A stretch of DNA of 64,000 nt from Tetradesmus obliquus (taxonomy: Eukaryota; Chlorophyta; Chlorophyceae; Sphaeropleales; Scenedesmaceae): contig CP126202.1 in assembly GCA_030272155.1 (NCBI GenBank), positions 2,728,001-2,792,000 on the forward strand, written 5' to 3'. The position numbers and the translations under genes are program-made. The notes under the pieces were generated by a model, which was given only the letters and a program-made list of their open reading frames with translations, did not search any database and was not told the origin of the DNA. Shown piece after piece: positions 4,853 through 63,937 of the stretch. Every line of letters begins with the position of its first letter. The stretch's first letter is position 1.

Positions 4853-6213
4853 TCAAGGCAAACGTGAGGAGGCTGGTGCTGTCGTGTTGTTGCTTGCGCC
4901 ACCAGCCCCACCCGCGCTGGCGTCACCGGCAGTACCGCCGGTGACACTGCCGGTACCGCTGTTCGTACCGCCGTTCCCACCTGGCCTCGTTGGGAAGTTC
5001 ATAGTTGGGCGCTGCTGCTCCGCAGCAGGTGTCACCAGCATACTCAGGCTCTGCTGCCTGCTGCTGCAGGCCGTGTTTACCACAGCGACACCAGCAGCAC
5101 CCGAAGGGCCGGCAGTGCGCATGCTGACAGACACGGGACCTCCAGAAGCTGCACCAGCAGGTGTGGCACCACCACCTCCAGCAGCAGAGGGAGAGGTTGT
5201 CTGGGGGGAGGGAGAGGCGCCTGTGGCGTTGGTGGTGGTGGTTGCGTTGCTGGTGGCGTTGTCGGCTGCAAAGGTCTGGGGCGTGGTGGCAGGGACCACG
5301 ACTGGGTTGAACACGGTGCTGCATGCACAGCAGCAGGTAGCAGCAACAGGCGGCATACACAGATGCTTTTGAAGTAAGGCGTTTGTGATGTGTAAAGATC
5401 TGGGGTGTGGTGGCGGGGACCACGACTAGGTTGAACACGGTGCTGCATGCACAGCAGCAGGCAGCAGCAGCAGCAGGCAGCATACACATATGCATTTGAA
5501 GGATAAGGCGTTGATGTGCAAAGGTCTGGGGCGTGGTGGCAGCGACCACGACTGGGTTGAACACGGTGCTGCAAGCACAGCGGCAGGCAGCATACATGAG
5601 TAGTTGAAAAGTGGACGTGGTGTATCAAAGTGCAAAGGTCTTTAGTGTGGTGGGAGGCCACCAGAGCAGTGTTGCTCACAAGCAGAGGGCCGCAGCAGCA
5701 GGCAGCATTGTGCAGCAAAGACATCGGGCGTGCCTCCTCTCCCAATGCCAGTGCAATGGTGAGTGGAGAGCCCTCTTGGCTGAGCCTTCCCGCACTCATA
5801 TGTGCAAACACAAGCATACAATGAGCTCCTTGCTATGTAACACAAACGTGTAAACACGAGACAGCAGGCTATGCACACACACATGCCCACGCCTCCCGTA
5901 GAGAGTGTGGTGGTAGCCACAGACCCTCCCTGGCTGGTTGAGAGGTCTGCGTGGCGCCTGGCACACCACCCAATGCAGACCGTTTGATATAACACACAAT
6001 ATGTTAAGGCCCTTGCACAGGCAAAGCTACGGTAGTTACTGCAGCATACACACACCTGCCCACGCCACCTGTAGAGAGTGTGGTGGTAGCTGGTGAGCCG
6101 CCTTGGCTGGTTGAGGTCTGTGTTGCGCCTGGCACACTGCCTGAGCTGAACGAAGAGGCGCCAGGCCCTGAGGTGAAGCTTCCTGCACAGCAGCAGCAGC
6201 AGCAGCAGCAGCA

Positions 6214-6249
<36 letters not shown>

Positions 6250-13453: not shown

Positions 13454-14122
13454 ACCAGAGTGGTCTTGAGGCAGCAGTGGAAAGCCTAGGCATCCATCAA
13501 CAAGTGAAGCAGAGCAGACAAGATGTGAGTGGCAGTGCCATTGCAAATGTACCGTGCAAGTGTTAAACAGCGACAGCGTGTGCATTATGTGCTTAACTTG
13601 TCTGCGTCAGCATGTTTCGCATGTATGATGCCTTGAAGTATTGTCTGGCTGGTAGCTCAAAGCATTGCAGCTGCAAGGTGACAAACCGCAGCTTCTTCTG
13701 TCAATGCAATAGCTGCCCTCACTGCACAAGCTATTTGTAAGGGTGTTTGGACTGCTCTAATCAGTGTGACACTGCTGCTTCTTTGTGTGTGCATTGATGC
13801 TGCTATGGCCAGTTGCTTGCAGCGCGGCAGCTGAAGTCTGCTGTGCAGGAAATGCAGCAATCCAACGAGCAGGCAGCAGAGCAGCAGAAGCGCAGCCGGC
13901 GGCAGCAGCGGCAGCAGCAGCTCCTAGACTACAATCCAGACGATTCCAAACCCCAAGTAGCTGAGCAGCTGGCAAGCAAAGCAGAGCGGCAGATTGTGGC
14001 TGACGTAAGCCAACAAGCTCTGAAGGACTACAGGCACAGCGTGGCAGCAGAGCAGCGGCAGGCCAAGGCAAAGCAGAAGGAGCCCAACGAGGAGGCGCCA
14101 GGGCAGCAGCGCCGCAGCCGCC

Positions 14123-14153
<31 letters not shown>

Positions 14154-15577
14154 CCAGCAGCAGCAGCAGCAGGCCAATGACGAGGCAGCAGCGCAGCAAC
14201 GGCGCAGCCGGCGGCAGCAGCACAAGCAGCAGGCAGTGGATATGGTGCATGGGATCCCACAAAAGCATCAGAACCTAAGTGCGGCAGGTGCTGCTGGCGG
14301 CAGCGGCGCTGCGGCTACTGCCAGCCGCCGCCGGGGCGGCAGCAGCAAAGCCAGCAGCAGCAGCGTCAGCAGCAGCAAGTCCAGCAGCAGCAGCAATTCC
14401 AGCAGCAGCAGCAGCAAAGACGGCAGCAGCAGTAGTAGCAGCAGCAGCAAAGATACTGCAGCAGCCGCGCAGCTGCCTGCACAGCCAAGCATGGACTTGG
14501 CTGCGTGGCGGCGCACGCGCGAGGCTGTGCTGCAAGCGATGAAGGTGAAGGAGCTTCAGGGTGTGCTGGAAGATAAGGGCTGGCCACTCAAGAAGTCGTA
14601 CAAGTCGAAGAAGGGGCTGATAACGGTGCGTGGGCTTGGCTGTTGGGGGAGTGAGTTTGGGTACAAGCGCATGTGCGCAGGCGCCGTAAGATGCATGTAT
14701 CAGGAGGCTGGCTAAGGGAAGTTAGATTTGGGTTTGGGTAGGCAGTGGGCCGGTGGTTTATGATTCTGGGGTTTAAAGATGAAGGAGCTTCAGGGTGTGC
14801 TGGAGGATATGGGCGCGCCACTCAGGAAGTCGTACAAGTCAAAGAAGGGGCTGATAACTGTGCGTGCGCCTGTTTGGGGCAACCAAGTTGGGGACAAGGG
14901 CATGTGCGCAGGTGCCTCAAGTTGCATATGTCAGGAGGCTGGCTAAGGGAAGTGTTATAGGACTAAGATCATGGTTTGGGTAGGCGGTAGGCCGGTGGTT
15001 TATGATTCTGGGGTTAAGGTGAAGGAGCTTCAGGGTGTGGTGGAAGATATGGGCTGGCCACTCAGGAAGTCGTACAAGTCAAAGAAAGGCCTGATGACGG
15101 TGCGGGGGGCTGTTTTGGGGAGCCAATTTGGGGACAAGTAAGGGTGTGCAGGCGCCTTAAGATGCTTATACCAGGAGGCTGGCTAAGGGAAGTAAGGAAT
15201 GCAGCACTCCAGCACGGCGGGCTGTGGCGGGCTGCGGCGGGCTGCGAGTGTGTAAGGGTGGGCTGGTGCCCTATGGTTTTAGCTGGGGTGCAGGATATGC
15301 TCAGGTGCTGTCGCGCAGAACAGATGTACAAGCAAAGAGCTTGCAACCAAGCAGTGTGTGTGCCACGAGCTGCTGGCAGGCAGCAAGCGTTCTCTGTTGC
15401 GTGGCATGCACTCAGCACCTGCACCCTTTGTCTCATTTTTTTTTTCGGCTCATAGCACCCGGCTGCCTGCTGCGTGCTCTGCTGCTGTGCTGCCTGCAGG
15501 CCATTTTGATGGGCGAAGAGAAGCGTGTGGAGGGTTTGCTGCCAGGACAAGCAGCGCAGCAGCAGCAGCAGCAGTAG
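13009..15577 (+). CDS. Organelle-targeted Gln/Ser-rich protein with SAP-like motif
   Basis: Three exons with matching phase: 13009-13524, 13831-14625 and 15500-15577 (stop), giving 462 residues. The N-terminus (MLRHSIKLLDLN... ASRVLLGYSTATQQ) is basic and hydroxylated, as in a mitochondrial or plastid presequence. The middle has poly-Q, poly-S and repeated EQQKRSRRQQ-like basic blocks likely to form a charged coil. The C-terminal part (MKVKELQGVLEDKGWPLKKS, then YKSKKGLIT) fits the SAP pattern of two short helices used to bind DNA or RNA. I infer a nucleic-acid binding protein of an organelle; the family is not identified. Two decayed copies of the SAP-coding exon end lie in the last intron. 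The first copy also encodes KELQGVLEDMG, so exon swapping cannot be excluded. Confidence 0.65.
13394..13453 (+). repeat. Exonic (AGC)n read as poly-Ser
   Basis: About eighteen AGC codons in exon 1 of the SAP-like gene; a poly-Q run of the same triplet in another frame lies at 13140-13173. Confidence 0.8.
14590..15190 (+). repeat. About 237-bp repeat: SAP exon end plus intron start, three copies
   Basis: The segment KELQGVLED...KGLIT with its donor and the following GGAGGCTGGCTAAGGGAAGT tract occurs at about 14545-14715, 14780-14955 and 15020-15195. The first is the real exon; the others lie downstream in the intron and are still open over the motif. Confidence 0.8.
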
Positions 15578-17775: not shown

Positions 17776-18795
17776 TCATTTCCTGAAGTCAGCAGGCAGG
17801 CTGTCGGCTGTGAAGTACTCTACTGCCAGCTCCTTCCTGCTCACAAAGCGCACCAGCGCAGCATACTTGCGCAGCAGCGGCTTGAAGGCCTCCCAGGGCG
17901 CCTTGAAGATCCAGGGAGCGTCAACCAGCAGCACCTGGCCAACCCTGCAGCGCCAGCAGCAGCAGCAGCAGCAGGGAGAGGCGAAGCGTTTGGTAAGTAA
18001 GTCATATTGTGTAGCAGCGGCTTGAAGGCCTCCCAGGGTGCCTTGAAGATCCAGGGAGCGTCAACCAGCAGCACCTGGCCAACCCTGCAGCACCAGCAGC
18101 AGCAGTAGAAGGTGCAGGGTTGTCAAGGATGCTGGCCAGTTTGACAGCATGTGCAGCACTGCAGCAGCTGCTCAGCATTGGGCTACGCACGCCAGTTGCG
18201 CACAAGCTTGCCATCGCCCTTCGTATACGCCATGCATTAGACAGCATCCAACTGCCAGCACCCAAGCTTCAGTGTAAAAGCCGCAGCCAAAGCCCCAACA
18301 AATCGTCAACCAAGCAGCTGTTCCACCTCCTGGGGCTTTGCTGCCTCACCTCCTGGGATAGCACTCGAGCACCGCCTGCAGCACAACGACACCAACCAAG
18401 CCCAAATCCAGCCCAAATTGAGCCACAACCTAAACAAACCAACTCCTAGCCACGTCCCTAACATGGAGCTGCATCACTTGCTGGGGTAGCACTCCGGCAC
18501 CTCAAACAAACCACAAACAAATGCAATTGAACCACAGCAAAGCCCTGATAAACATCAACCATGCAGCTGCCTCCCCTCCTGGGGTATCACTTCAACACCG
18601 CCTGCAGCTCGACCGTGCCCCAACCAAGCCGTCACTAGTGTTTGAGCCAAGACCAAGCCTTAGCCAAGCCCCAACCAAGCAGCTGCCTCACCTCCTGGGG
18701 TAGCACTCCGGCACCGCCTGCAGCACAAACATGACGAAGGCCAGGTCGATGTTGCGCATGGAGATGCCTTGAAGGTCAACCACCCACAGGATCTG

Positions 18796-18832
<37 letters not shown>

Positions 18833-20725
18833 GGCTGCTGGAGCTGCTGCTGCTGCTGCTGCAGCATGGCGACCGCACTGTCGAGCATGTAGGCTGAGAG
18901 GCGCTTGCTGTCTGCGATGGGGAACTGGCCTGCGTGCAGCAGCGGCAGCAGCAATGAAGGTTTAAGCATGTGAGGCGAGTTGCCTCCTGAGTCCAGAGGA
19001 CGCATATGGCATGCATAACATCTCATTTCGTCCGCATAGGATACAGTCTTTCAGCCCCAGCGCCAGTTTCAGTCCTGCTTACATGTTGTAAAATGCAAAC
19101 TCACCCTTTACATTTGCACACTCAATGCTGGTACGACCATGAATCTGTCTTAAACGTGGCAGCAGCCTCACAACAGCCGCATGTCGGTCGGCAGCTTGCC
19201 GCAACAGACAGTCATTATCTACACACTGCCAGCTGCCTGCAGCCAGCCCACTCCACCACAATCAATGAATCAATGAATCAATTAATCAATCACGCATTTT
19301 CTAGCAACAGTTGGACCCAAAGGGAGCCACTCCACCACCCACCTATGAAGTGCTTGCGTGCGCGGATGACCACTGCTGGCCTGCCTGCCTTATCCAGGTA
19401 GCTGTGCAGGTACGCCTTGCCTGTGCGGTGCTGCTCAGCAACATCTTCATACCTCACATCAAACAGCCTGCAGAGCAAGGAAGGCAGGTGTTTGTTGGTT
19501 ATAGAGGTTAATGAACGGATTTAAGCAGGGGACCACAGCAGGAACAGCCAGCGGAGACTGTAGCAGCTGTATATATAGCTGGTCAGCTGTGGCCGTGGCA
19601 GTGATGCACTCACAACGTATCTACATCACGAGGCAAGATGACATGTTTGCATCTGTCATAACATGTTATTTATGAGTCTGGCGCACGCACCTGTTTGTTG
19701 CGCGCCAAGCGAGCATGGCCTTCAGCTGCACCTCAGCAGCATCAGCACTGAAGTCACTGCAGCAGCAACAGCAGCAGCAGAGGGCAGTAGCAGAGGCAGT
19801 GTCATTGACGTCCAAACATGTGAAGCAGCCGCCAAATATGGAGCCTCCCAAGGTTGATGATTTGATGATGCAGTGCCTTGAAGGGCCACAGCTGCAATTG
19901 TGAATATGATGCGCGTCTCAACCGGCCACTGTTCAAAGTACTTGCAGCACATGCAGATACCATGCCTTCGCATGACAAACGCGACCAGCATTGCAACAGC
20001 GCATTATGTGTTGCAAGCACGCCTGCCAACGGCACTGCATTCTACAAAGGCCAGCCAATGCAGCCCCCAAGACCTCTATGTTGGCACTGCTGCTGCTGCA
20101 GCAGCAGCAGCAGCAGCAGCAGCAACATGGCACCAGTTTTTCCTCACCTGTCTCGCAGGAACCACTTTAGGGTGGCCTCATCTGGGCAGCCGTGCGGGTG
20201 GCTTGCCAGGCGGCGCTGCAGCTGCTGCAGGGCCTGACAGCAGCAGGCAGCAACACGAGCAACGCAATGAGCAGCAGCTAACATCGGACTTATCAAAATG
20301 TTGAAGCAGAATGGGTGATGGCGGTATGTATGGTCGGCATATGTATGGTCGGCAGCAGAGGAGGAGCATGCAGGACTGCTGCTGGCGGCGGCTGCATTTG
20401 GCTATGGCAGTATGCAGCCAACCTGTGAGGTGCCTGCCAAACGGTTCGAGTTTCGAGCTGAACTTAGTTGACGTTTGTGCAGCATGCAACAGCTTAGCCA
20501 GTGATGTGCAAGGTCACCTGCTGCTCCAGCACTTACCTGGAGGTTTTCAGCGCTGTCTATCCATTGTTCTGGTGCAGCAAAGTCGTTGCCCCTGTCGTGG
20601 TCACTCAGGTAGCAGCTTCTAGTGCTGCTGCAGAAGAGACCCCTCGATCCATGCTTCATCCTATCGCTTAGGGAGCAGCCACGCTCAGCAACGAGCTGGC
20701 TGGACATAACAGATGCAGTAGCCAT
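17776..20725 (-). CDS. CRAL-TRIO domain (Sec14-like) lipid-binding protein, copy B
   Basis: Six exons join in perfect phase: 20725-20537, 20233-20148, 19756-19691, 19467-19343, 18929-18692 and 17944-17776 (stop), giving 290 residues. Residues about 64-115 form the CRAL-TRIO N-terminal helices (DEATLKWFLRD, AAEVQLKAMLAWR). Residues about 130-285 form the lipid-binding fold, with GRPAVVIRARKHFIG, WVVDLQGISMRNIDLAFVMF, PECYPRR and VLLVDAPWIFKAPWEAFKPL. Such proteins bind and exchange hydrophobic ligands such as phosphoinositides or isoprenoids; the ligand is unknown. The first about 60 residues are Ser/Arg-rich and may be a presequence. A poly-Q run of roughly 20 residues interrupts the domain between residues about 170 and 195, where copy A has none. 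Same exon plan as the gene at 21694-25302. Confidence 0.92.
18009..18605 (-). repeat. Partial exon copies inside the last intron of CRAL-TRIO copy B
   Basis: 18009-18091 repeats the acceptor side of the last exon (GQVLLVDAPWIFKAPWEAFK), then breaks off. Short copies of the donor side of the previous exon (PECYPRR plus GTGAGG) occur at about 18340-18385, 18476-18500 and 18570-18605. Acceptor-side copies sit upstream, and donor-side copies downstream, of their intact exons. Confidence 0.8.
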
Positions 20726-21905: not shown

Positions 21906-21936
<31 letters not shown>

Positions 21937-23122
21937 CAGCAGCAGCTTCCCATGCCGTGCTGATCAAGCGCCAGCAGCAAAGGCGATGCTTCCAAGTGCA
22001 AGGAAACTGCCACAAGAAAACTGTGCTGTCACCAGCTGTGCCAGTGCCGAAACGCTTAGTCCTCCTGCATAGTCAAAGGCACACGCCTGTCAACTGTGAG
22101 GGTAAAACATCAGGTCGATAGTACAGTAGCTTTTGTAGCTACCAAAGCTACTGTACTATCGACCTGGTGTATTACCCGACCAGTACTAGCTTTCCCTGCC
22201 GCACACTACCACACAACCTGCTACAGCCAACAGGACCATGCCTCCCACCCACCTCCTGGGGTAGTGCACGAAGAACGCATCCACCATGAACGCCACAAAC
22301 ACCAGGTCGATGATACAGCAGCCTTTGCCCTGCCGCACACCACACACAGCCCTTACTGCCAGCTGACATGCCTCATGCCTCATCACAGCAGTTCACACCA
22401 AATGCCGCACCTTCGCGGGTAGTGCACGAAGAAGGCGTCCACCATGAAGGCCACAAACACCAGGTCGATGTTGCTCAGGCTGATGCCCCCCTGCTGCACA
22501 CCACACACATATGGCGGCCAACAAAATGCTGCCGCACAACACACCTGCGCCCTCCGCAAGAAGATCACACCACACTTCCCTGACGGTGCATGGCACCACG
22601 CCACACACTCGCTGACTATACCAGCCTCGCAGCAGCCTCACCTGCGCGGGTAGTGCACGAAGAACGCATCCACCATGAAGGCAATAAGCACCAGGTCGAT
22701 GACACAGCAGCCTTTGCCCTGCCGCGCACTACATACAGCCCTTACTGCCAGCTGACATGCCTCATGCCTCATCACAGCAGTTCACACCGGATGCCGGAGC
22801 AGCCGCACCTCCTGGGGTAGTGCACGAAGAAGGCGTCCACCATGAAGGCCACAAACACCAGGTCGATGTTGCTCAGGCTGATGCCCCGCAAATCAATGCA
22901 GCCCAATATCTGCTCGCGGCCCGCTGGCAGCTTGGCGAGTGCTGCTTCAAGGCTGTACACGCACAGCCGCTTGCTGCCTTCAATAGGAAAGTCGCCTGGC
23001 AGCAGCAGCAGCGGCGGCAACAGTCGCAGCAGCAGGTTAGTCCTTGCTGAGGCTGTACACACACAGCCGCTTGCTGCCCTCAATAGGGAAGTCGCCTGTA
23101 GAGGTGCGGGAGGAGGGGAGGG

Positions 23123-23161
<39 letters not shown>

Positions 23162-23163
23162 GT

Positions 23164-23217
<54 letters not shown>

Positions 23218-23641: not shown

Positions 23642-23672
<31 letters not shown>

Positions 23673-25302
23673 GAGTTGGTACTGGTAGTTGTCCAGCTGG
23701 TCGTGCACAAATGACTTGCCTGTGGCGTTACTCGGCTTTGACGGCATCCAGCGTGATGTGGTCCACTCTGCGTCATGACGCATGTGCAAAGTGTGCTGTG
23801 AACGCTCCCTGCAGCTGGTGACATACAGTGGAGGTGCTGCGGCACTGGCAGTAGCCAATGCAGCTGCTGCTGCCGCTGCAACTGCAATGACAGACGTCGG
23901 TGCCTGCTGTTGCTGCTGCTGCTGCTCACTTGAAGGCGTGCCGCCACTTGAGTGTTGCTGCCAGCTTCTCCTCAGCCTCATCCACATCAAAGTACCTGCA
24001 GCGGGCAGTGCAGTGCAGCACAGGCGGCAGTTGGTTACACAGCAGGCAGCGTAATGACATCAAAGTACCTGCAGGGGTCAGGCAGCACACCATGCAATCT
24101 TTTTGTCAACAATACAGGTGGCAGCAATACAGCACAGCAGGTTGTGGCACGGCACTCCAGGGTGAATCCTTGACATCAAAGTATCTGCAGGGGGCAGTGC
24201 AGCGCAGCACACGTGACAGCATTGCCGCGCGGCACAGAACAGGTGGCAGCAGGAACATTCTGCAGGCCCAGTGAGCCAGCTTCTCCTCAGCCTCATCCAC
24301 ATCAAGGTACCTGGCAGCATAGCACAGCATACCACAGCACATGTGGCAGCACAGCTTTCACCTCTAGTGACACAGCAGGGCAGCACAGCACAGCACAGCA
24401 CATCACAGCACAGCACAGCACAGCACAGCACAGCACAGCACAGCACAGCACAGCACAGCACTGTGTGGCACAGCACAGTGTTGGGAAGCACAGCATTGCC
24501 CGGCACCGTACAGCACAGCACAGCACATCACATTAACAGCACAGCACAGCATGTCACAGAACAGCATGATGTGACAGCACTGATTCAAGCTGATGTGGCC
24601 GCACCTGTCCCGCAGGTACCACTTGAGTGTGTCTTCATTCGGGCACTCCTGCCCATTCTTGCTCATGCGCGTGCGAAGCTGCTCTAGTGCCTGGGGGGAT
24701 GTGGTGATCAAAGTGCAGCCAGCGTGTGTGCGAGAGCCACAATCGAAGGCATAGTGGCATTGGGCAGTAAAACGATAATGCAGAAGAACATGATCAAGTC
24801 AGATGGCATGTGCTGCTGCTGCTGTTGCTGCCGCTACTGCAACAAGCGGTTGACCCAAGTTGCTGAGACTTCATGTGCTGGTGGAATCAGATGTGTGTCT
24901 TACTCTGCAGCGATCACAGTGCAAAAGCCATGTGCAAGCAAACCAGCCTGCACAGTGGTGGGTATGTATGCCAAAGCAGCTGCTACCACTACACATGCCG
25001 CAGGCAGCACCATCTGCCACCGTCCTTGCACAGGGCGGTGTGTGCAGCTGTCGATGATTATGCTGTGCTTACGCTGCTGCTTCTGCTCATGCCAATGCTG
25101 AGGACACCAACCAGCACACCTGCAGCTGCTCGGGGGTTCCCTGCCATGGAAGCGGAGCTAGTCCGGGTGGGGTCGCTTCAGCAGTGCTGACACTGCGAAT
25201 GCGAGCCAGCATGCGTCTAGGGGCCCGGGGGTGTTGTGCTGCTGCTGCAAAGCTGTGCGGCCTAAGTGCTGGCCTTTGCGAGTGCAACGCGGAGCGTAAC
25301 AT
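21694..25302 (-). CDS. CRAL-TRIO domain (Sec14-like) lipid-binding protein, copy A
   Basis: Six exons in perfect phase: 25302-25120, 24690-24605, 23995-23930, 23626-23502, 22995-22809 and 21862-21694 (stop), giving 271 residues. The first exon (MLRSALHSQRPALRPHSFAA) looks like a mitochondrial or plastid presequence. Helical CRAL-TRIO N region: EDTLKWYLRDR, FDVDEAEEKLAATLKWRHAF. Lipid-binding fold: GKSFVHDQLDNFQRPVLIIR, EQILGCIDLRGISLSNIDLV, HYPRR, QVLLVDAPWIFKAPWELIKP and VRFVSRKELAAEYF. Exons 2, 3, 4 and 6 have exactly the same lengths (86, 66, 125, 169 nt) and phases as copy B, so the pair arose by tandem gene duplication. The ligand is unknown. Introns hold many partial exon copies, but only one set of exons gives an open, complete product. 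Confidence 0.92.
21880..21945 (-). repeat. Intronic (CTG)n-type run next to the last acceptor
   Basis: Plus-strand CAG runs, so CTG in the gene sense, ending just before the acceptor of exon 21862-21694. Confidence 0.75.
22111..22166. repeat. Perfect 23-bp stem inverted repeat
   Basis: Left arm 22111-22133 (CAGGTCGATAGTACAGTAGC + TTT) and right arm 22144-22166 are exact reverse complements around a 10-base loop. The outer part (CAGGTCGAT) is a piece of CRAL-TRIO exon 5 coding for IDLV, so the hairpin was made from an inverted exon fragment. Confidence 0.9.
22250..22712 (-). repeat. Three partial copies of exon 5 of CRAL-TRIO copy A
   Basis: Copies at about 22250-22322, 22408-22490 and 22636-22712 repeat the donor-side 60-80 bases (IDLVFVAFMVDAFFVHYPRR). 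The first and third share about 80 bases of flank at a 390-base period. All lie downstream of the intact exon 22995-22809. Confidence 0.85.
23042..23215 (-). repeat. Acceptor-side copy of exon 5 followed by (CTG)n
   Basis: 23042-23098 repeats the first 55 bases of exon 22995-22809 with its acceptor (GDFPIEGSKRLCVYSL). It is preceded, in the gene sense, by two long CTG runs on plus 23128-23215. Confidence 0.8.
23640..23775 (-). repeat. Broken copy of exon 4 plus CTG run
   Basis: 23690-23775 repeats exon 23626-23502 from its acceptor (DHITLDAVKAE...GKSFVHDQLDN), but an early stop (TAA after GCCGAG) and loss of the second half show it is not used. The (CTG)n run at 23643-23673 lies between it and the intact exon. 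Confidence 0.8.
24056..24312 (-). repeat. Short acceptor-side copies of exon 3
   Basis: Fragments matching the acceptor and first codons of exon 23995-23930 (CAG GTACTTTGATG, and in the longest copy the AEEKLA codons) occur near 24056-24072, 24172-24190 and 24270-24312, upstream of the intact exon in the gene sense. Confidence 0.7.
24381..24475. repeat. (CACAG)n pentanucleotide satellite
   Basis: About 95 bases of nearly perfect CAGCA repeats in an intron of CRAL-TRIO copy A. It produces meaningless long frames (HSTAQHSTAQ and CCAVLCCAVL) on the two strands. Confidence 0.9.
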
Positions 25303-26624: not shown

Positions 26625-28555
26625 TCACCCCAGCACCATGTACATAAACTGCTGCTGCTGCTGAGATTGATTATTTGAGAGCACTTGGTGCACTCAAGGC
26701 TCGAGGAGCGAGGCAACAAACAAACATCAACAAGCTGCACTGCCATGTGCTCATGCAGTTGCCTGCACTGACACTCCAGCCTTCTCCTGCAAGGCCAAAA
26801 AACACAGCAGGCAGAGGCAGCAGCAGGATGATGAGTATGTGCTTGTGGACACATGCAATGAAGATTTGTAGCCAGCACGCACGCCAGCACGCATGCCATA
26901 TGAGGAGTTGAGCTGCTGGCAACCACGCTCATACTCTATAAACACAGCTGGTCGCACACTCGAACAACAGCTGTGTGCAATCATGCAGCACAGAAACGCT
27001 GTCACCCGAGGCGAGATGCAGTGCCACCCAACAGGCTGGCTAAACTCAAGTGCAAGTTATGGTGTTTGGCACGCGGACGGTGCCCTGTTCGCCATAGCCA
27101 CCCCAACGTGACATGCATTGTGACATGGAAGGGTTATGAAAAGCAGCGCCGCCGCTCACCATCTGCTGCGCCACCTTCTTTGCCGCCTTCTTGGCAGCCT
27201 TGCTGCTCTGGTCAACAACAGCAGCCACGTCCTCCTCATCGGGGATGATGGGGAAGCTCTTCACGCGCTTCATGCTGTTGGTTGAAGCAGCAGCAGAGGC
27301 GGCGGCAGCAGCCAGGGGTGAGGAAGGGACAAGGAACGGCAGCAGTTGTAACGCAACAAAAGTGCATGTCTTCTGCCGGTACTACATCAAGCTGCAAGAG
27401 CTAGTCAAAGAAGGGGAGACACGGGAAAGCCAAGGAGCCGGGTAACAACGATGTGACGCAGCATCGCCGCGTCAGCAGCTTGATATGCTCACAAATGTAA
27501 CACAAGTACCAAATCTCTTGGCCATGCCCTCCCAGGCACACGTGTAAAGGTGACACAAACTGCTCAGCATTGCCACATCAGCAGCTTATGGATTCAATGC
27601 AACACACTCGCTCCATCTTCTTGGCCATGCCCTCCCATGTGGCTGTGGCGCAAAGGCGCCAGGTAACAACATTAATGTGACTCAGCTGTGCCATGTCAGC
27701 AGCTTAATTCACATTGTTACATTGTTAAACTCACCCCATCTTCTTGGCCATGCCCTCCCATGTGGCTGTGGCGCTCTTGGACACGCTGCTCACGCTGTTG
27801 GCGGCAGCGGCCTGCACCGCCTTGAAGCCCTCGCTGGTCTTTGTAGCTGCAGCAGAGGCCTGCGGCACAAACAATTAAGCAAATGTTGGTATATAAGTGA
27901 ATCACGTACACGTTGTTTGCGTGTGAGGTGTGTGCTTGTGCGCTGTGCAGCAGGGTGAGCTCGTCAGCAGAGGGGCTATAGCGCTAGGCATGCCTGCTGA
28001 AAAACTGAGCAAGAGTCTCCATGCTATGGCCAGCAGCACTTCATCATGAGCATGTATCTGTGACAGCAGTCTGTAACTCACGGTTTCTGAGATCCTGGAG
28101 TAGCTAGCTGATGCAAGCTGCTGTGTCTTCTCCCTGTTGTAAATCCTGCAGTGGCAGCAGCAGCACACACATTGCAGCAGCAGCGGCAAAGACGCAGCAC
28201 TCTAAGTCAGCCGCTGTATAAGGTAGCTTCTAGCGTTTACTACAGCTCATGAAGCTGCCTCGGGAACAGCTGCATAGGAGCTTTGGGGCGAGGCAGTGCT
28301 CTCTGGTGTCGCACATCGCTTCGCTGCCCCAACAGCTGCTGGCAGCCAACCTCCATATCGCATTCAGTGTTTGACGCTTTACACTATTGTTTAAACAGCA
28401 AAACGGACGGCGTTCTGCTGGAGCCTGTGAGGAGTGCCACTGGTGTGCCAACAGCTGCGTGACCTCCCCCCGGGTGCGCACCCCAGCGCCACAACTCCAG
28501 CAACAACGGTCGCTGCTGCGCCGATCGCGATGCTCTGCTCCTTGGTTGGTGCCAT
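26625..28555 (-). CDS. Small single-span membrane protein, function unknown
   Basis: Exons 28555-28482, 28145-28082, 27859-27735 and 27274-27160 join in perfect phase. A final exon 26660-26625 (QQQQFMYMVLG, stop) fits the phase but is tentative. The product is about 137 residues. Residues 8-25 (SIAIGAAATVVAGVVALG) form a membrane span right after a short MAPTKEQ start, so the rest probably faces one side as helix. That part is Ala/Ser/Lys-rich (EGFKAVQAAAANSVSSVSKS, WEGMAKKMG), then a KRVKSFPIIPDEED segment and a Lys-rich amphipathic helix (SSKAAKKAAKKVAQQM). I do not recognise the family. The WEGMAKK coding part of exon 3 is partially copied twice downstream (27520-27670). Confidence 0.7.
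27520..27670 (-). repeat. Donor-side copies of exon 3 of the small membrane protein
   Basis: Copies at about 27520-27545 and 27620-27665 repeat the 3' end of exon 27859-27735 (TATWEGMAKKM). They lie downstream of it in the gene sense, within the intron before exon 4. Confidence 0.75.
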
Positions 28556-33315: not shown

Positions 33316-33369
<54 letters not shown>

Positions 33370-55012: not shown

Positions 55013-58000
55013 ATGCAGGCTGGAGCTGTAGCACCGGCAGCACCTGCTGCTGTTGCTGCAGCACCAGGGAAGAATGATGAGTTGGTGCCCAACCTGAACA
55101 ACTACGTTCGTGGCAAGCTGTCCAGGGCTGAGGTGCTCACATTTGCAGACTGTGCAAGGGCTTTGGGTGAGCTGATCGGCACAGCCGCGGCTGGATCGTC
55201 AGTTGTGAAACCAGCAACCTGCAACTGCCACAGCTATGCAGCAGCTTAGGTGGTGTGCAGCACCTGTGACTAATGCAGCACCAGTTGCAATTGGTTGGAA
55301 AACTGTAGCAGTATCCCATACGTCAGCATCAGCTTGGGCAGCTGCATGTCAGACGTGCTTGCAGCCTGCAAGCAAAGACAAATCATTCACAGCAATACAC
55401 AGTCAGCTACGCCTTGGTGCTGCTGTTTGCTCAGCGTGTGTGCTTGCAGTAACTGCCTCGTTGCATCACACGAGTGTCTACATACACACATGTGGCAGCA
55501 AGCTAGGTATCAATGACCTGCAGCAGTGCTCCGGTTGTTACGCACCAGCTCATATCAGCATCGCTCTATTTCAGCACTGCTCTGCCCGCCTGCACAAATC
55601 AAGACACGAGAATCCCCGCATCATGTCTTGCTGCGCCTATCTTGTGTGCAGCTACTGCCCTTAATGCAGCAGATGGCAGCGGCAGGGAGGTTATCAGCAA
55701 GATCATGGTGCGGCTGACCCTCTTTGGAGGGCTGCCGCCATCCATCTTGCCCCTGCTGGTGTCAGTGCGGCTCAAGGTGAAGACTTACCCTTTAACGGCA
55801 GCAGTAAACCCAGCACTGATGGAAGTAGAGCGTTGGACTGTTGCTGCAGCAGTGCAGCCCAGGAGCAATAGCTGGAAAGCCCCATTGCAGCAGCTGCCAG
55901 ATGTACAGCAGCTAAAACAGAGTTGACATGGACCGGGTGCAGGTGGAGAGCAGCTGAGCGAGCAAATGAGTAGCAGAGAGCCCGCCTGAACACACAAGGT
56001 CACCGCAGATTTAAATTGTTGCGCAAGCGCTCACACAGTTGCACTGCTGCTGTTCCCGCGGCTGCAGGTTGACCTGCCCAAGACCGCAGACCGCAAGCTG
56101 CTGCGTGTGGTGAACTACCTGGTGCAGTTGGCAGCAGGCGAGGGCTCTGCTGGCACAGTGGTGCCCTTCAGCACACTCAGCGGTGAGCAGAAACACAGCT
56201 GCAGGTGTTGCTGATGTGTTTTGACAGCGTGCCTGCAGTGGTGGTGTGGCACTTGATGACTTATGGTGTGGAGTGTCGTTTGACAGAACAGCATGTTGTG
56301 CGTCCACTGCACAAAGCTGTGAGTGCGGGCAGTGCAATGCCTAAGTGGCAGTGCAGGAAGACTATCTCATCTATTGCGTATAGCAGGGTACGCGCTGCCT
56401 TCATACAGCAACAGATGCAGCAGCAGAGCAGCCCTCTTCAACACAAGCACACAGACATGCTGCTTGCTGCCATCCATCTCTCTCACATTCCATCTCTCTG
56501 CCTCCACAGGCCAGGTGCTGCCACCTACAGCCACAGACACCTTCGAGTACAGTGCACTGGACACGCTGTGGGCTGATGTCAAGAGCGAGTCAGTCACGCA
56601 CTACCAGCGCTCTGCAGCATTCCGCACTCTGGCTGCACTGTCACGCAGCAGTCTCAGCAGGTGCGACACACAGCATGCAGCAGCAGCTGCCAGATGCGCA
56701 GTGTTTTGCTGAAGGACCGATGTACGGAAATGTGATTGTTGCGCGTGGTTGTGCATGTCAGCAGCGTTCCGCACTCTGGCTGCACTGTCACGCAGCAGCC
56801 TCAGCAGGTGTGGCACACACAGCATGCAGCAGCAGCTGCCAGGCGTGCAGTGTTTGCTGAAGGACCGACGTATGGAAATGTGTTTGTTGCGCGTGGTTGT
56901 GCATGTCAGCAGCCTTCCACAGTCTGGCTGCACTGTCACGCCGCAGCCTTAGCAGGTGCGGCACACACGGCATGCTGATGCAGTAGATGCTGGCAGCTCA
57001 AGTTGCTGCAGCTGAGCAAGTCTGAGTACATGGCGCATGGCGTCCCTACCATGGTAATTTTATTAATTCACTGACTGCGCTCGTGTCTGACTAGATGCCC
57101 AACTCCTGGGCAATAACACTTGCTGCTTGCACACATGTCTGCAGACCCCAAGTGACCTCACTTTTGTGTCACCATTCATGCCAGCCCAACCTCGTCCTCA
57201 CACAAAACCTTACTGCTCTCTCACACATACTGCAGCGACCCGGACGACCTCACGCTCGTGTCACACCTCATGGCAGCAGTCGCAACAACCCTAGACCGCT
57301 GCGAATCGGCGCGCCGCCGCAAGGTGCCATTTGGCATTGGTGGCAACAAGAAGTCGCGGGATGCAGACAGGCGGCAGACGCTGGAGCGCGTTGCGGCGCA
57401 GCGCGCGGCGCTGTCGGCAAGCAGGATTGGCTTGCCAGGAGTTGTGCAGGTGCGCTGGCACTGACCATAACACTTTTGCTTGATCAATGGACACCTCAAC
57501 AAGTGTTTAGCACAGTCAATGCTGTATAGCCTGTCGAGAACCTTGTTGCTGTACTCTCTGGTGTCTGTCTCTCAGGTCCTTTAGGTATCCCTGTTGCTAT
57601 TCTGTGCTGCGCAAACCAAGCGTTGTCCTGCTGCTGCACTGCTGCTGCGCTGCAGTCGAGCAAAATCGCACCCCGCGCATTTGGCGCTGTCAACTCCCCG
57701 GACGCTACGTGTGCGCGCCACGCGCTGGCGGTTGCAGCGCTGGCGGCGCGTGACATGCCCAGCATGTATGTTGACCAGTTGGGACAGCTGGTGGCTAACA
57801 CACTGGAGATTTACCACAAGACAGGTGGGTTGGCAGCAGCTGGCACACATTTTAGGTCTTTGTAAAAGGTTTTAGATCAGTAATGGTACTCTATGAGTGG
57901 AGTTGACATGCCGGGCATGTATGTTGACCAGCTGGGACAGCTGGTGGCAAACACGCTGGAGATTTACCACAAGACAGGTGGGTTTTGCAGCAGCTGGGCA

Positions 58001-61000
58001 TACGTTGCAGGCTGGTCAACACGCTCATAGGATCAGTAACGGTTCTGCACAAACCCCGACATGCCGGGCATGTGGTGGCAAACACGCTGGAGTTCTACCA
58101 CAAAACAGGTGGGGTGAACACCTACTACTGCTGTCACCGGCACAGTTCAAATATGCCTTAGGTTTTTTGACCAGCTGGGGCAGCTGGTGGCTAACACGCT
58201 GGAGATCTACCACAAAACAGGTGGGTTTGCAGCAGCTGACGTACGTTGCAGGTCTTTGCACAATGTTTTATCTTAGTAATGGTATTATACGTGTGGCTCG
58301 TATGTTGACCAGCTGGGGCAGCTGGTGGCAAACACACTGGAGATTTACCATAAAACAGGTGGGTACACAGCAGCTGGCATACATTGTAGGTTTTTTTGGC
58401 ACAAGGTTTCAGCTCATTAATGGCACTATATGAGTTTAGTTGACATGCCCAGCATGTATGTTGACCAGTTGGGGCAGCTGGTTGCAAACACACTGGAGAT
58501 AGACCACAAGACAGGTGGGTGCGCTGGAAGTTACTGCAAGTAGCTTTTACATTTCAGACCTACCTGTTTAGTTTTGGACGGTGCAAGTGCAGCGCATCAT
58601 GCAAGTGGAGGAGCTCTTTAAACCAGAGCTCTGCACTCATTCACGTTGCACCCTGCGTATCATCACACAGCAACAGCTACGCGTGCGTCACACATCCCCG
58701 TCCCTCCAACCTTTTGCATCGCCGTATGATACCCAACTACCTACATGCGCACTGCCTGCAGGGAGCCTGGGAGGGGCGGAGCAGGCCGCTGCCATGGCAG
58801 CAGCAGCAGCCGAAGGCATGCTGTGCGTGCCTATTACGCCGGCTCAACTCCTATTCATGTTGGCCATGCCATGTCCTCTTATACCATACTACCTACATGC
58901 TCATACAGCACCGCATGCGCCCCGCACTGCCTGCAGGGAGCCTGGGAGGGGCTGAGCAGGCCGCTGCCATGGCAGCAGCAGCAGCCGAGGGCATGCCTGC
59001 ACCGCTGCGTCCCACCAAGGAGCTGTACCAGGAGAAGAGCCTGAACCTGGCTGATGCCTGGGCACGCGTGTACCTGGCCCGCGGCTGCGGCGCAGTCGTG
59101 CACTCCCGTGTCGGTGAGTGGTAGGACTGTACTGTACATTTTGGTCAGTTTGATTGGCATCTGCACTGTTTGTAAGGCAGCGAGAGATGTTGTTTGTGTT
59201 GGCGTCGGTCAGTGTGCTGTTGTAGCTCTTCTCCAAGGCGGGGAACCAAGGAGCTGTACCAGGAGAAAGCATCAACTTGGCTGATGCCTGGGCACGCGTG
59301 TACCTGGCCCGCGGCTGCGGCGCAGTCGTGCACTCCCGCGTTGGTAGGTGCATTATGCAGGATTGCACATGTGTTCTGCGTGCAGGTGCACATGGGGCTG
59401 CAGGTGCGTCATTCGTGGTGCAGCGCTTGCGACAGAGCAAGGTGCGTCTATTTGTAGTTGCTGTGCTGTGCTTTTGTGCACCTGGGTTTTTCAGAGGCTA
59501 CCCAATAGATGCAAACCTCAATGTGCTGCTGCTGCTGCTGCTGCTGCAGGCAACAGCCGGCCCTTCTGGGAGATGCTGGTGCTGCTGGCCTGCTGCGACA
59601 AGTCGACCATTGTAGCGCTGGAGGCGATCAAAGGCCTGGCAGGTTTGTGCTTGGAGCTGTCTTGGAATGATGTGTGTGCTGTCAACACGCTAGAGTGCCG
59701 GCCCTGGAATCCTGCGCTGTTTGATGTGCACCGCGCTGCAGTTCGGGCTGCATGGCAAACTCGTCGACTGTGGCGTCTGCTTGCCTGCAGTAGGTAGGGC
59801 ATGCACTGCATTCCTCGGTGATTTGTCATTCTGGACGGTTGAATCTGTTCAAAGGGGCGGCAGCTTTTCCATGCATGCCTAATGCAGTGAACACCTCGCA
59901 GTGTACGGCATACACAAAGTATTACTCTTTCAACACCTGCGAACACTTCATGCCTGCGCACTGCTGCTGCCACTTGCAGGAGCACCCTTCCCAGCAGCAG
60001 CAAACATTGGATCCACCACCGCAGCCGCAACAAGTGGCAGCAGCAGCAGCAGCAGGCGGCCATTGCAGATGCCGGACGAGCACGTTGAAGCAGAAACACG
60101 CCTGCGCTATGCAATGGCATGGCAGCTGCTGGTGGCTCATGCAGATGATGATGCACCTGATCCTGCAGGCGGCGCTGCTGCTGCCACTGCAGCTGCAGCG
60201 CAGAGCGCAGCAGCAAACAAGCAGTTCACGATATCTCGGTGAGCAGCGCGTGCAAGTGTAGGTGTGCTGTTGCAGCGCTGCCTATGCCTGTTGTTGATTT
60301 GTTGTAGAGGATAGTTACATGTGGGTCCTCGCATTGGTGGCATTGGTGTTTTTCCTGCAAGCGGTCGTGTTAGCTGAGGCTTTTGCTGTTTTCATGCGCG
60401 AGGCTGCTGGTACACTTGCAGCAGCTTCTTTATCGTTCTGTCAACCCTATCCCAGCGCATCTTTCGTGCTGCTCCGACGCAACTGCCGGCTCACCTCAAT
60501 CGCTTCAATTCTTTTACTCCCGCTTTGCAGGACGCAGCGCAGCTTGCAAGAATCTGCATCGCTGCGGCGGCTGGCCTCGTCATTCTGCTGCAGGACATTC
60601 ACCAACTGGCAGTGCCACTCATCTGCTGTTGCCCCCTGTTTGCTCTCCTTTGCAGGACGCAGCGAAGCATGCAGGAATCCGCGTCGCTGCGGCGGCTGGC
60701 TTCACTAGGCACGGAAGCAGCTGGCAGGGCTGATGGCAGTGTTTCTCATCTGCATTTGCACCTGTTTGCTCCTGTTGCCGGTTTGCAGGACGCAGCGCAG
60801 CATGCAGGAGTCTGCATCGCTGCGGCGGCTGGCTTCACTGGGCACTGAAGCAGCCGGCAGGGCTGACGGCAGCGGGGCGGCAAGCAGCGGCTTGTTTGCC
60901 TCCATTGTGTCGCGGCTGCTGCTGTGCCTCAGCCAGATGAGCCATGCGGCCATTTGCAGGTGCGTGTGTCTGTGGTGCTGGGACAAGTAACAAATTATTA

Positions 61001-61997
61001 ACATCTGGTAACAAATTGGCCTCAGTCAGATGAGCCATGCGGCCATCTGCAGGTGCGTGTGTCTGTGGTGCTGGGACAAGTAACAAATTTGTAACATTTG
61101 GTTACAAATTGGCCTCAGCCATATGAGCCATGCAGCCATCTGCAGGTGTGTGCCGGAGTGATGGGGGCGGTGCGGGTTACAATTGGTCAGAAAGCATGGC
61201 TGCTGCTGCAGCTGTTGGCTCAGCAGTCCTGTTAGCAGTGGCTTGTTTGCCTCCATTGTGTCGCGGCTGCTGCTGTGCCTCTGCCAGATGAGCCATGCAG
61301 CCATCTGCAGGTGCGTGCTGGTGTAAGACAGGTGCCTTTGGTGTGGGTTAGTCAAGTTGGGTTGGGAAGGGTCGCTGCTGCTGCTGATTGCTCAGCAGCC
61401 CTGCCAGCAGCAGGTCATTGCCTTGAATGTTGTTGCTGGCGTCACTGGGCACTGAAGCAGCCGGCAGGGCTGATGGCAGCGGGGCACCCAGCAGTGGCCT
61501 GTTTGCCTCCATCGTATCGCGGCTGCTGCTGTGCCTCAGCCAGATGAGCCACGCAGCCATTTGCAGGTGAGTGCTAGTGTAAGACAGCTGCCTTTGGTGC
61601 GGGTTAGTCAAATTGGGTTAGGGAGGTCGCTGCTGCTGTTGTTCGCTCAACCGTCCTGCCAGCAGCGGGCTATTTGCCTCCATCTTGCTGCCTCTAGAGT
61701 GTCATTGTGGCTGCTGCTGTGCCTCAGTCAGATGAGCCACGCAGCCATCTGCAGGTGTGCGGATTTGTATAGTTATCCACGAGATGCCAGCAGTTCCGGG
61801 CAGGTGCATGCTGCTGTTCTGTGCTCAGCAATTCATGCGGTTGCAAGATACAGCAAGTAGCGGCAGAGCGCAGCCTGAAGTATGATGTGCTTGCTGCTCT
61901 GTCGGTGCAGCAACTTGGATTAGCTCTACGCTGCTACTCACCTTGCTTCCGACCCCTGCTGGTGATGCCGTGCTGCCCACCCCTGCCAATCTAACCC

Positions 61998-62061
<64 letters not shown>

Positions 62062-63937
62062 AGTGCCACGAGCGCTGTCGCAGTGCTGGCAGAGGCCCGT
62101 GCGCATGCGCTGGCCGGTGCACGCAGCGCTGCTGATCGCGCTGCTGTGCTTGGCGGGGAGGGCTGCCAGGAGCTTATGCAGCTGCTGCAGGAGCGCATGC
62201 TGGCGATTGCTTCAGACACAGGTGCGGGCTGTTTGTGTGGTTGCCTGAAAGTATACTGATGTCGAAGGTGGTGCGGCTGTGCTGGGTGGCGGGGGCTGAT
62301 GCAGCTGCTGCAGGAGCGCATGCTGGCGATTGCTTCGGACACAGGTGCGGGCTGTTTGTGTGGTTGCCTGCAAGTATAGCGCTGTCAAAACTCGTTTGTG
62401 CTGCTGTTGGTTGCCTGATGCTATTGTGGTGTGAAAGGTGGTGCTGCTGTGCTGGGCGGGAGGGGGCTGCCAGAGGCTGATGCAGCTGCTGCAGGAGCGC
62501 ATGCTGGCGATTGCTTCAGACACAGGTGCGGACTGTGTGTGGTTGCCTGGACGTATGGTGTTGCTCCTTGCACCACCTCAATGCAATCATGCCTTACAGC
62601 GGGGCAAGGCGCTGGAGGCGCTGCTGCTCCCTGCACTACCTAGACCCTGAAGATGCTCACTCGACTGCTGACATGCCGCACTTCTCCGTTTACACACATT
62701 GCCTTTCAATGCATCGCATTGCTGTGCTGCAACTGCAGGCTTTGCTGCGCGGCAGCGGGGCTAGGCGCTGGAGGCGCTGCTCCTTCCTGCAGCATCAGAT
62801 CATGTTGTACACGAACACAACTTCCTTCGACCTATGTTATCTCACTATGTTGTACCTTTTATGCCTCCTGCAGGCTTTGCTGCGCGGCAGCGGGGCAAAG
62901 CGCTGGAGGCGCTGCTGTGGTTCAGCAGCCTGCCCAGCGCCAGCAGGGGGCCGGGGCCGCTGACCAGCCCGCGCCAGATCCTGGCCTGGATGAGCACGGG
63001 TGAGTTTTGATTTGGTTTTGTGGTTTTGTTAGTACGGAGGGTGGGGCTGTACTCCCACCGGCTGACTGCAGAGTGACAGGCAGGCTCGGGTGGGTTCGGT
63101 GTTTTTATCTTGAACAAGTCTGACTGCGCAAGTGCTTGTGCTTGCCAATGTGCATGCATGTTGACCACATAACACTGTCGGTGTTGTTACAAATATCTTA
63201 TGTTAGGCAGTCATCTCACCATCGTGCATCACACTGAAGCAGAATGTACTTCTGCGGCTATCCTTTTGCAGGCGGCGGCACCGTCTCCCAGGCAGTGCGC
63301 GCCATCTTCGCCGACCCCTGGCCCGAAGATGTGCTGTCCTCCTTCCTTCATGCGCTGTCGCGGCGGCTGCTGTCAGCGCCCGCTGCTGCCTCTTACCTGC
63401 TGGCTTGCGCCTCTGCTGTGGCGAGCGCATGCCCCAGCAGGGTGCGGCAGGAGCAGCTGCACGCGATGTGGGATGTGTGCCTCAGGTAAGCCTAATACTT
63501 CACAATCATATGGCAGCCCTAACAGCACTGCTCGTGACCTATGCACATCGGTACCAGCTGCTGCATGGGCGTGCTGCGGCAAAGCCCAGGCATGCTGCCC
63601 TAGACTACAACTTGTGCTGCAACTATGTCCGCAGGGTCAATAATCTCTCGGTGAAGCTGGCAGGTCTGCAGGCAGCCCTGGCTGTGCTGGCAGCACACCC
63701 CACCATGATGGCCTGAAACATAGCATGCGGCGCGGCAATATTGACAAGCATGTTGTGCCTCGATCGCATATGTATGTGCAGGGCGAACAATCCTTCGGTG
63801 AAGCTGGCAGGTCTGCAAGCAGCTCTGGCAATCATGGCTGCACCCACACCCGCGATTGCAGCGCCACCCTCCGCAGCAGCGCCGGAAGTCAAGGCACTGG
63901 CGAGCAAGGAGGAGGCAGCAATGGTTTCGCTGGCAAG
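55013..63937 (+). CDS. Large alpha-helical (HEAT/ARM-like) protein, incomplete at right edge
   Basis: Exons: 55013-55166, 55670-55776, 56068-56182, 56510-56660, 56987-57053, 57236-57449, 57656-57824, 58937-59113, 59386-59403, 59550-59642, 59980-60238, 60789-60959, 62064-62221, 62874-62999, 63272-63485 and 63782-63937, then onward past 64000. All joins agree in phase except 57053 to 57236, where a small exon is missing from the model. More than 780 residues. Helical segments include LSRAEVLTFADCARAL, VISKIMVRLTLFGGLPPSIL, DRKLLRVVNYLVQLAAGEG, CARHALAVAALAARDM, YVDQLGQLVANTLEIYHKT, LNLADAWARVYLARGCGAVV, FWEMLVLLACCDKSTIVALE, LRYAMAWQLLVAHADD and ELMQLLQERMLAIASDTG. This is an alpha-solenoid, probably a scaffold in trafficking or transcription, but I cannot name the family. 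Ala/Ser-rich insertions (about residues 425-450 and 485-500) interrupt it. Nearly every intron holds partial copies of the flanking exon. Confidence 0.75.
56759..56960 (+). repeat. Two donor-side copies of exon 4 of the HEAT-like gene
   Basis: AAFRTLAALSRSSLSR with its GTG donor, ending in the real exon at 56660, recurs ending at about 56807 and 56954, with shared flanks (spacing about 147). Confidence 0.85.
57123..57165 (+). repeat. Acceptor-side copy of exon 6
   Basis: CTGCAG then codons resembling DPSDLTFVS, a copy of the start of exon 57236 (DPDDLTLVSHL), about 110 bases upstream. Confidence 0.65.
57765..58515 (+). repeat. Six tandem donor-side copies of exon 7
   Basis: The segment DMPSMYVDQLGQLVANTLEI + YHKT + GTGGG occurs in the real exon (donor at 57825) and again with donors near 57978, 58108, 58220, 58358 and 58515. 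Copies vary in length and keep the coding frame and donor. One copy has changed YHKT to DHKT. Confidence 0.9.
58755..58820 (+). repeat. Acceptor-side copy of exon 8
   Basis: CTGCAG then the GSLGGAEQAAAMAAAAAEGM codons, 180 bases upstream of the intact exon 58937-59113. Confidence 0.85.
59225..59343 (+). repeat. Donor-side copy of exon 8
   Basis: Copy of TKELYQEK...LADAWARVYLARGCGAVV with a donor (GTAGGT), downstream of the intact exon. A 4-base deletion near ELYQE shows it is not an intact duplicate. Confidence 0.85.
60525..60705 (+). repeat. Two acceptor-side copies of exon 12
   Basis: Each begins with TTTGCAG and encodes TQRS.QESASLRRLAS. They start near 60531 and 60656, upstream of the intact exon at 60789 (spacing about 125-133). 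Confidence 0.85.
61018..61760 (+). repeat. Five donor-side copies of exon 12
   Basis: LCLSQMSHAAICR plus GTG donors ending near 61050, 61145, 61308, 61566 and 61754, all downstream of the intact exon end at 60959. The fourth also carries the ADGSGAPSSGLFASIVSRLL part. Confidence 0.85.
61998..62063 (+). repeat. (CTG)n run ending at an acceptor
   Basis: About twenty CTG units with one TTG, merging into the CAG acceptor of exon 62064-62221. Confidence 0.9.
62275..62530 (+). repeat. Two donor-side copies of exon 13
   Basis: LMQLLQERMLAIASDTG with a GTGCGG donor recurs with donors near 62346 and 62526. The real donor is at 62222. Flanks (GCTGTTTGTGTGGTTGCCTG) are shared. Confidence 0.85.
62595..62795 (+). 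repeat. Two acceptor-side copies of exon 14
   Basis: Copies of the start of exon 62874-62999 (ARQRGKALEALL) near 62597-62640 and 62736-62790, both upstream of it. The second has the same CTGCAG acceptor. Confidence 0.8.
63634..63720 (+). pseudogene. Truncated copy of exon 16 with an in-frame stop
   Basis: After CCGCAG, reads NNLSVKLAGLQAALAVLAAH and then stops (TGA near 63717). The copy at 63782-63937 continues open. If the first copy were spliced in, the protein would end here, so it could be a poison exon. Confidence 0.65.

Follow-up and report, generated by a model that had tools for sequence, protein, structure and literature searches.

Copies of exon edges in the window

A 64,000-nucleotide (nt) stretch of the genome of the green alga Tetradesmus obliquus (C12:2728001-2792000; hereafter the window) was analyzed for pieces of exon that recur, together with one splice junction, in the adjacent introns, and the presence of such exon-edge copies was confirmed. 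Eight gene models were obtained, and families of junction copies (junction families) occurred in six of them, including g39 and g40, which contain an internal stop and are doubtful models. The model g41 was an artefact of 8 amino acids, and the long model g45 (40315-54452, 35 exons) had no junction family, unlike its neighbors. The original prediction had placed such copies in eight of ten genes; their presence in most models stood, but the tally of eight among ten gene calls was not reproduced. There were 1 to 6 copies per junction in the window, compared with the 1 to 7 that had been noted.

In g46, on the forward strand, the functional exon at 57656..57824 (donor at 57824; hidden Markov model [HMM] gene model), the first of six aligned donor copies, is followed at 57904..58520 (+) by five donor-side copies ending at 57977, 58108, 58220, 58358, and 58514, each of which reads ..ACAG|GTGGG. 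A further functional exon of g46 (60789..60959, +; HMM model and alignment) has copies on both sides, with five donor-side copies at 61019..61757 (+; ends at 61052, 61145, 61310, 61566, and 61754) and two acceptor-side copies upstream at 60520..60739 (+; exon starts at 60531 and 60656). On the reverse strand, the functional exon of the CRAL-TRIO domain gene g43 (22809..22973, -; reading ..FFVHYPRR; Pfam PF00650 and ungapped alignment to SEC14-like chains) has three donor-side copies at 22246..22720 (-; ends at 22642, 22411, and 22253), and the equivalent exon of g42 (18692..18929, -; Pfam and alignment) has three at 18340..18612 (-; ends at 18576, where the GT is lost, 18478, and 18350). The genes g42 and g43 (17776-33527) are tandem CRAL-TRIO paralogues with the same donor junction copied in both, and by eye each set of copies resembles its own gene. 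The functional exon of g44 (38238..38439, +) has an acceptor-side copy at 38097-38171 and three donor-side copies at 38645..39163 (+; ends at 38695, 38943, and 39156), the intron flanks of which are mostly unrelated.

Two donor-side copies each were found for the exons 35926-36074 (copies at 36253..36563, +; alignment), 56531-56660 (56758..56955, +; local repeat and alignment), and 13823-14625 of the doubtful model g40 (14776..15099, +), the last of which could be real repeated exons. The exon 58941-59113 has one acceptor-side copy (58748..58821, +; local repeat and alignment) and one donor-side copy with an unrelated intron flank (59245..59345, +). Single acceptor-side copies belong to the exons 17776-17944 (18003..18086, -; local repeat and alignment) and, each supported by a local repeat and a printed pair, 23502-23626 (23682..23771, -), 23930-23995 (24275..24318, -), 62874-62999 (62733..62781, +), and 63782-63937 (63624..63704, +); a single donor-side copy belongs to the exon 27735-27846 (27612..27651, -; alignment and printed pair).

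Extent and geometry of the pattern in the genome

The genome (104.66 Mb in 17 contigs) was sampled by the window and 20 loci of 10 kb, one at 1.0 Mb on each of the 17 contigs and three further, giving 264 kb in total. Genes were modeled by an HMM gene finder that was self-trained on these 264 kb without RNA support and that yielded the consensus CAG|GTG for donors and TGCAG for acceptors. The guanine-plus-cytosine (GC) content was ~0.56, and the genes were rich in introns and in CAG; Table 1 of PMC5966456 lists 108 Mb, 57% GC, and a mean intron of 462 bp for T. obliquus. Loci L021 (mobile-element-like) and L023 (tandem gene array) were excluded from the codon, four-gamete, cluster, splice-dinucleotide, copy-versus-copy mismatch, flank, far-end, similarity-end, window-rate, and family counts, and L019 (dense arrays, doubtful gene) was excluded from the flank, far-end, similarity-end, codon, four-gamete, window-rate, and family counts. 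L019 was retained in the cluster, splice-dinucleotide, and copy-versus-copy mismatch counts, and all three loci were retained in the metagene, direction, and multiple-of-3 spacing counts. Genes of <150 amino acids (<100 for the cluster and similarity-end analyses) were omitted. Except in the early direction counts, the functional exon was assigned as the most upstream member of a donor group or the most downstream member of an acceptor group, and later direction counts therefore hold partly by construction.

The pattern is spread over the genome. Local direct repeats (<3 kb) made up 17.9% of the window and 16.0% of the window and 20 loci together; they were present in 15 of the 21 sequences, with six loci having none. 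A local copy was found for 27,053 of 247,886 test windows, compared with 0 of 85,258 in a control obtained by block-shuffling part of eight sequences. After exclusions there were 91 junction families (46 donor and 45 acceptor) with 154 copies in all, and 13 of the 20 sampled loci held such families when L019 and L021 were counted. The metagene of local copies peaked at exon edges: for 40-nt windows matched at at least 80% within 2.5 kb, the copy rate was 0.218 at -15 and 0.077 at +15 of donors and 0.153 at +15 and 0.055 at -45 of acceptors. With fixed 42-nt windows, a nearby copy was found for 60 of 263 donor junctions and 43 of 256 acceptor junctions, compared with 7 of 95 mid-exon and 35 of 353 mid-intron windows, some of the latter being copies themselves, and with 21 of 347 donor and 25 of 327 acceptor windows on the intron side. 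The proposed count of fragments by position relative to splice sites thus favored the junctions over controls of 6 to 10%.

The direction of the copies was also as predicted, with acceptor pieces upstream and donor pieces downstream. Over all loci and before any choice of functional exon, 127 donor-side copies lay downstream and 77 upstream, and 91 acceptor-side copies lay upstream and 46 downstream; the reverse-direction counts are inflated where the gene finder called a copy an exon. Predicted spacings of 90 to 160 and 210 to 260 bases agreed with nearest-copy spacings of 120 to 160 nt in 38 of 91 families and 220 to 260 nt in 15 of 91; raw repeat lags peaked at 110 to 130 and 250 to 259, with a weak peak at 380 to 399. 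The copies were fragments, as had been claimed: among exons of at least 100 nt, the nearest copy covered at least 90% of the exon in 2 of 62 cases, with a median cover of 35% (57.5 nt). The far ends of the fragments were also inspected for a second splice site, and none was seen.

Copies in genes backed by homology

Pfam profiles run over the whole genome, independently of the HMM gene finder, detected repeated segment matches within single genes. In an HSP70 gene on C17, profile positions 158-182 occurred twice ahead of the exon matching 159-224, and in an HSP70 gene on C13, positions ~370-404 occurred twice ahead of 370-432; DNA comparison added one more copy upstream. In the chaperonin gene TCP1 on C16, positions ~40-70 occurred twice ahead of 40-101; in tRNA-synt_1 genes, positions 143-176 occurred twice ahead of 143-188 on C13, and positions 119-156 followed 77-157 on C10. 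The same whole-genome search revealed no clear copies in LHC genes (PF00504). In the window, the g43 protein without the copies aligned gap-free to solved SEC14-like chains across ..FFVHYPRR|MGQVLLVDAPWIF.., and its three copies are therefore not expected in the protein. At these six clear junctions, all 13 counted copies lay on the predicted side (HSP70 C17, 2; HSP70 C13, 3; TCP1 C16, 2; tRNA-synt_1 C13, 2; tRNA-synt_1 C10, 1; g43, 3); some less clear TCP1 and tRNA-synt_1 profile overlaps are not among the 13.

A paralogue was considered as the source of the HSP70 C13 copies and rejected: the HSP70 copy matched its own gene only, and the functional exon matched its own gene and HSP70 paralogues at 74 to 79%. 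A 349-base array likewise matched its own locus only, and in these two arrays the claim that the copies are gene specific rather than introners held.

Placement of clusters and ends of similarity

Among 71 clusters of local copies (at least 85% identity), 1 was wholly intronic, none was wholly exonic, and 3 were unannotated, compared with 26 intronic, 12.5 exonic, and 4.8 unannotated expected for random placement on the same gene models. Contiguous head-to-tail clusters numbered 16 of 71. Simulated uniform tandem duplication followed by a protein filter, with indels and deletions included (three settings, 60 genes each), gave 39 to 48% intron-only and 79 to 93% contiguous clusters.

The edges of similarity were sharp in many pairs. 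A host exon was available for 125 of 187 matches and for none of the remaining 62, leaving 77 junction families to score. In 6 of these, similarity stopped within the exon itself; a stop at 0 to +10 was seen for 17 of the 49 donor families and 9 of the 28 acceptor families. For nearest pairs, intron-side similarity exceeded the 99th percentile of the control in 51 of 91 and did not in 40 of 91. Of the latter, 22 had exon parts at at least 90% identity; among 24 that were picked by hand, several had an exon identity of 95 to 100%, with a match that usually continued through the splice consensus and then stopped, and others were as low as 77%.

Evolution of the copies

Differences between exons and their copies were coding-like. 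Exon-copy comparisons yielded 397 synonymous and 276 nonsynonymous codon changes, 8 of them stops, and a neutral simulation with the same number of exon-copy differences yielded 174 synonymous and 508 nonsynonymous changes and 26 stops. Copy-copy comparisons yielded 232 synonymous and 199 nonsynonymous changes and 4 stops (neutral, 110, 339, and 15). The nonsynonymous share was 0.41 for exon-copy and 0.46 for copy-copy comparisons, compared with 0.75 under neutrality; by arithmetic, equal added synonymous changes on the exon side would give ~0.59, compared with the 0.41 seen. In eight homology-backed copies from four loci (five such loci were read in sequence, L034 was left out of the count, and the copies are not independent), there were 44 synonymous and 14 nonsynonymous changes, compared with a neutral 16 and 43, a ratio that favors intact residues because these copies were found by protein profiles. 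In the 33 families with two or more copies, shared changes were nonsynonymous at a share of 0.38 (11/29).

Of 93 donor copies, 79 retained the dinucleotide GT, with mismatches per site of 0.10 and 0.09, compared with 0.086 for codon position 1 and 0.082 for codon position 2. Of 76 acceptor copies, 61 retained AG, with mismatches per site of 0.14 and 0.16; codon positions 1 and 2 in the same comparison, at 0.070 and 0.064, had about half the AG values. Direct selection on splicing should protect GT and AG more than this, and the splice sites of the copies are thus probably not under such selection. In some families, site patterns were incompatible with a single tree: 27 of 70 site pairs failed the four-gamete test, compared with 11% in tree simulations, and mosaic-looking sites were present in five of eight testable families.

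Other repeats in the sample

Searches for recent paralogues with which the copies could be dated, made for the g42/g43 region and for L021, yielded dispersed repeats and mobile-element-like sequence instead. The window holds a dispersed element of ~130 nt at 31796-31933, found in at least 25 places elsewhere at 82 to 96%, and one of ~90 nt at 19023-19116, found in at least 14 places elsewhere at 88 to 100%, as well as a 30-nt tandem array at 9565-9746 (86% matches) and a CAGCA array at 24381-24566 (75% matches). The mobile-element-like sequence at L021:1-6283 (~6.3 kb) has long 98 to 100% matches on contigs 1, 5, and 8. In L019, dense arrays with lags of 279, 351, and 551 occupy positions 1-5854, and 59% of the locus lies in local repeats. 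In L023, similar gene units stand in tandem 3,682 bases apart (models of 370, 370, and, cut, 259 amino acids), and an identical 62-amino-acid frame recurs at the same spacing.

Interpretation and alternatives

The reading that we prefer, at a probability of about 0.4, is that the introns hold one-sided exon-edge copies that are ignored by splicing and kept exon-like by exchange with the functional exon. A short-range DNA duplication, with steps near 110 to 180 and 250 nt, would copy a segment that runs across an exon edge and the adjoining splice junction. The survivors would be copies that leave one complete exon, so that donor-side copies must lie downstream and acceptor-side copies upstream. 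With one splice site only, such a copy would be invisible to exon definition, the pairing of acceptor and donor across an exon. The copies and the functional exon edge would keep exchanging sequence, by gene conversion or unequal exchange; since sequence would be routed through the functional copy, on which selection acts, the exon-derived part would remain alike, mosaic, and coding-like. Intron flanks would be shielded in the functional copy alone, and there only over the splice consensus, so that they would diverge or be replaced, and similarity would therefore often stop near donor +6 to +8 or at the acceptor CAG.

Several results weigh against this reading. The gene models call some copies exons, which shifts clusters out of the intron-only class, and part of the gap between simulation and observation may be annotation because the simulation knows the true exons and the gene models err. 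By annotation, the 16 contiguous clusters, presumably young, included no intron-only case (one was unannotated), and the origin of the copies therefore also seems exon biased; the preferred reading needs this bias, and its duplication step leaves it unexplained. The difference in GC between exons (62.6%) and introns (54.1%; HMM gene models) is a possible cause of exon-biased duplication. Mean divergence in the 51 pairs with intron-side similarity was 0.108 for the exon part and 0.137 for the intron part, and an array at L013 6465-6941 with a period of ~100 was evenly conserved; the exon part thus evolved hardly more slowly in such pairs, and tandem units occur that need no special protection. 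Copy-versus-copy mismatches per 100, taken with no control, were 10.3 (exon) and 12.6 (intron) on the donor side and 12.8 and 15.5 on the acceptor side. Gap openings in nearest pairs numbered 5 over 3,196 columns of exon and 69 over 3,903 columns of intron, the exon figure being lowered because the 36 nt at the junction were searched ungapped. Changes found in single copies were nonsynonymous at a share of 0.55 (83/151), still under the neutral 0.745, so that exchange explains them only if it is frequent; the share of 0.34 (10/29) among changes unique to the functional exon implies that some frames or assignments are wrong. Single-family incompatibility had P values of 0.05 to 0.16, three of the eight families had none, and one of the five mosaic families lies in the doubtful model g39. 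Exchange itself is something that we infer and was not seen as an event. One-sided copying with exchange nevertheless accounts for the facts better than each single rival does, although it leaves some of the constraint unexplained.

The strongest rival, which we regard as unlikely, is direct function, in which selection would act on the copies themselves because they take part in regulatory or alternative splicing or are translated within isoforms. It would account for the coding-like substitution, seen also in one TCP1 copy (6 synonymous and 0 nonsynonymous) and in the HSP70 C13 copies (7 and 1), and for the 8 stops, compared with 26 if all differences were neutral or, by arithmetic, ~14 if only the nonsynonymous share were neutral copy mutation. 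Against it, GT fared no better than codon positions 1 and 2 and AG clearly worse, inspection showed no second splice site at the far ends, and the nearest spacing was divisible by 3 in 38 of 95 cases, near chance. Moreover, a protein with one fixed architecture, like HSP70 with its order of profile matches, could not accommodate additional segments. The earlier suggestion that the copies supply decoy or alternative splice sites accordingly appears, from the sequence, to be without support, given the codon-like loss of GT and the roughly twofold loss of AG.

Plain neutral tandem duplication, in which units of 100 to 260 nt arise anywhere, those that spare the protein persist, and the anchoring is a product of this filter, is disfavored and improbable. 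It was our first reading, in apparent agreement with metagene ratios and uncontrolled gapped extensions, and lost ground when the controlled flank test left 40 of 91 pairs without an intron-side match and the simulation disagreed. It explains the direction rule and the one-sidedness, and it agrees with the contiguous minority of clusters, the shared intron flanks of 51 nearest pairs, the close exon and intron divergences, and the absence of special protection at copy splice sites. It predicts far more intron-only and contiguous clusters than the 1 and 16 of 71 seen, and the coding-like differences do not suit neutral copies. The recurrent short-range tandem duplication that had been proposed survives in its preferred lengths and junction-tied placement; as a tandem process with a filter, it failed in both simulated counts.

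Junction-anchored copying, by which a bare exon edge would be inserted, for example, by RNA-templated repair from pre-mRNA or by break repair with filler, has a similarly small chance of being correct. Exon identities of 95 to 100% with unrelated flanks at L009 exon 621, L014 exon 5381, and L011 exon 1478 point toward it, as does a 55-nt copy at L013 exon 701 that ends at the exon end with the GT lost. Against it, donor and acceptor families occur equally often, a balance more readily explained by a DNA process than by a single splicing step; 51 of the 91 nearest pairs run on into intron sequence, and the synonymous-biased differences imply age rather than fresh copying. An assembly or annotation artefact, for which the self-trained gene models might speak, is very improbable, since the copies are several percent off the exon, often synonymously, occur in most sampled loci, and appear in Pfam profiles without the gene finder.

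Relation to known systems

Tandem exon duplication copies a whole exon with both splice sites. The present pattern resembles it in that exon sequence recurs next to its source, within one gene and in one orientation, but differs in that the copied piece is an edge with a single splice site and almost never the whole exon (2 of 62). Unit lengths similar to those of minisatellites and other tandem repeats, and some head-to-tail arrays, were found; unlike in minisatellites, contiguity was limited to a minority of clusters, placement was tied to splice junctions, 40 of 91 nearest pairs matched in the exon part only, and 1 of 71 clusters was wholly intronic. Concerted evolution by gene conversion shares the mosaic, similar copies and the site patterns incompatible with one tree; here, in contrast, one copy serves as a functional exon edge, and the rest are one-sided intron fragments.

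In the parts of PMC2891723 and PMC4974935 consulted, introns are gained when a coding segment carrying a proto-splice site is duplicated in tandem. This likewise involves a short local coding duplication with an AG/GT motif, but there a new intron arises inside an exon, and here the introns and junctions concerned appear to be existing ones. The present copies sit inside introns with one junction each. Introner elements, in the portion of PMC9860276 consulted, also supply intron content from sequence repeated genome-wide, but as one element in many genes, unlike the two gene-specific arrays examined here. No report of intronic, one-sided exon-edge copies was found in the literature searched, which comprised open-licence papers, most subscription journals lying outside the search. 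Local duplication, conversion, and splice-site copies are known kinds of event; their combination, scale, and one-sidedness look new.

Implications

The copies may form a genome-wide class distinct from both exons and decayed debris, amounting to a concealed store of coding sequence that selection would reach through trading of places or sequence with the exon edge and that would be tolerated under exon definition, although we hold this wider view only tentatively and consider it somewhat doubtful. If it is true, then a large share of the introns of one genome would hold natural junction copies beside the real ones, and the genome would lend itself directly to testing how near-identical sites are told apart by the spliceosome and whether exon definition alone is sufficient. 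Intron sequence that evolves in a coding-like manner without being translated would mislead annotation and synonymous-based tests of selection, and the copying of exon edges would suggest a route of intron growth.

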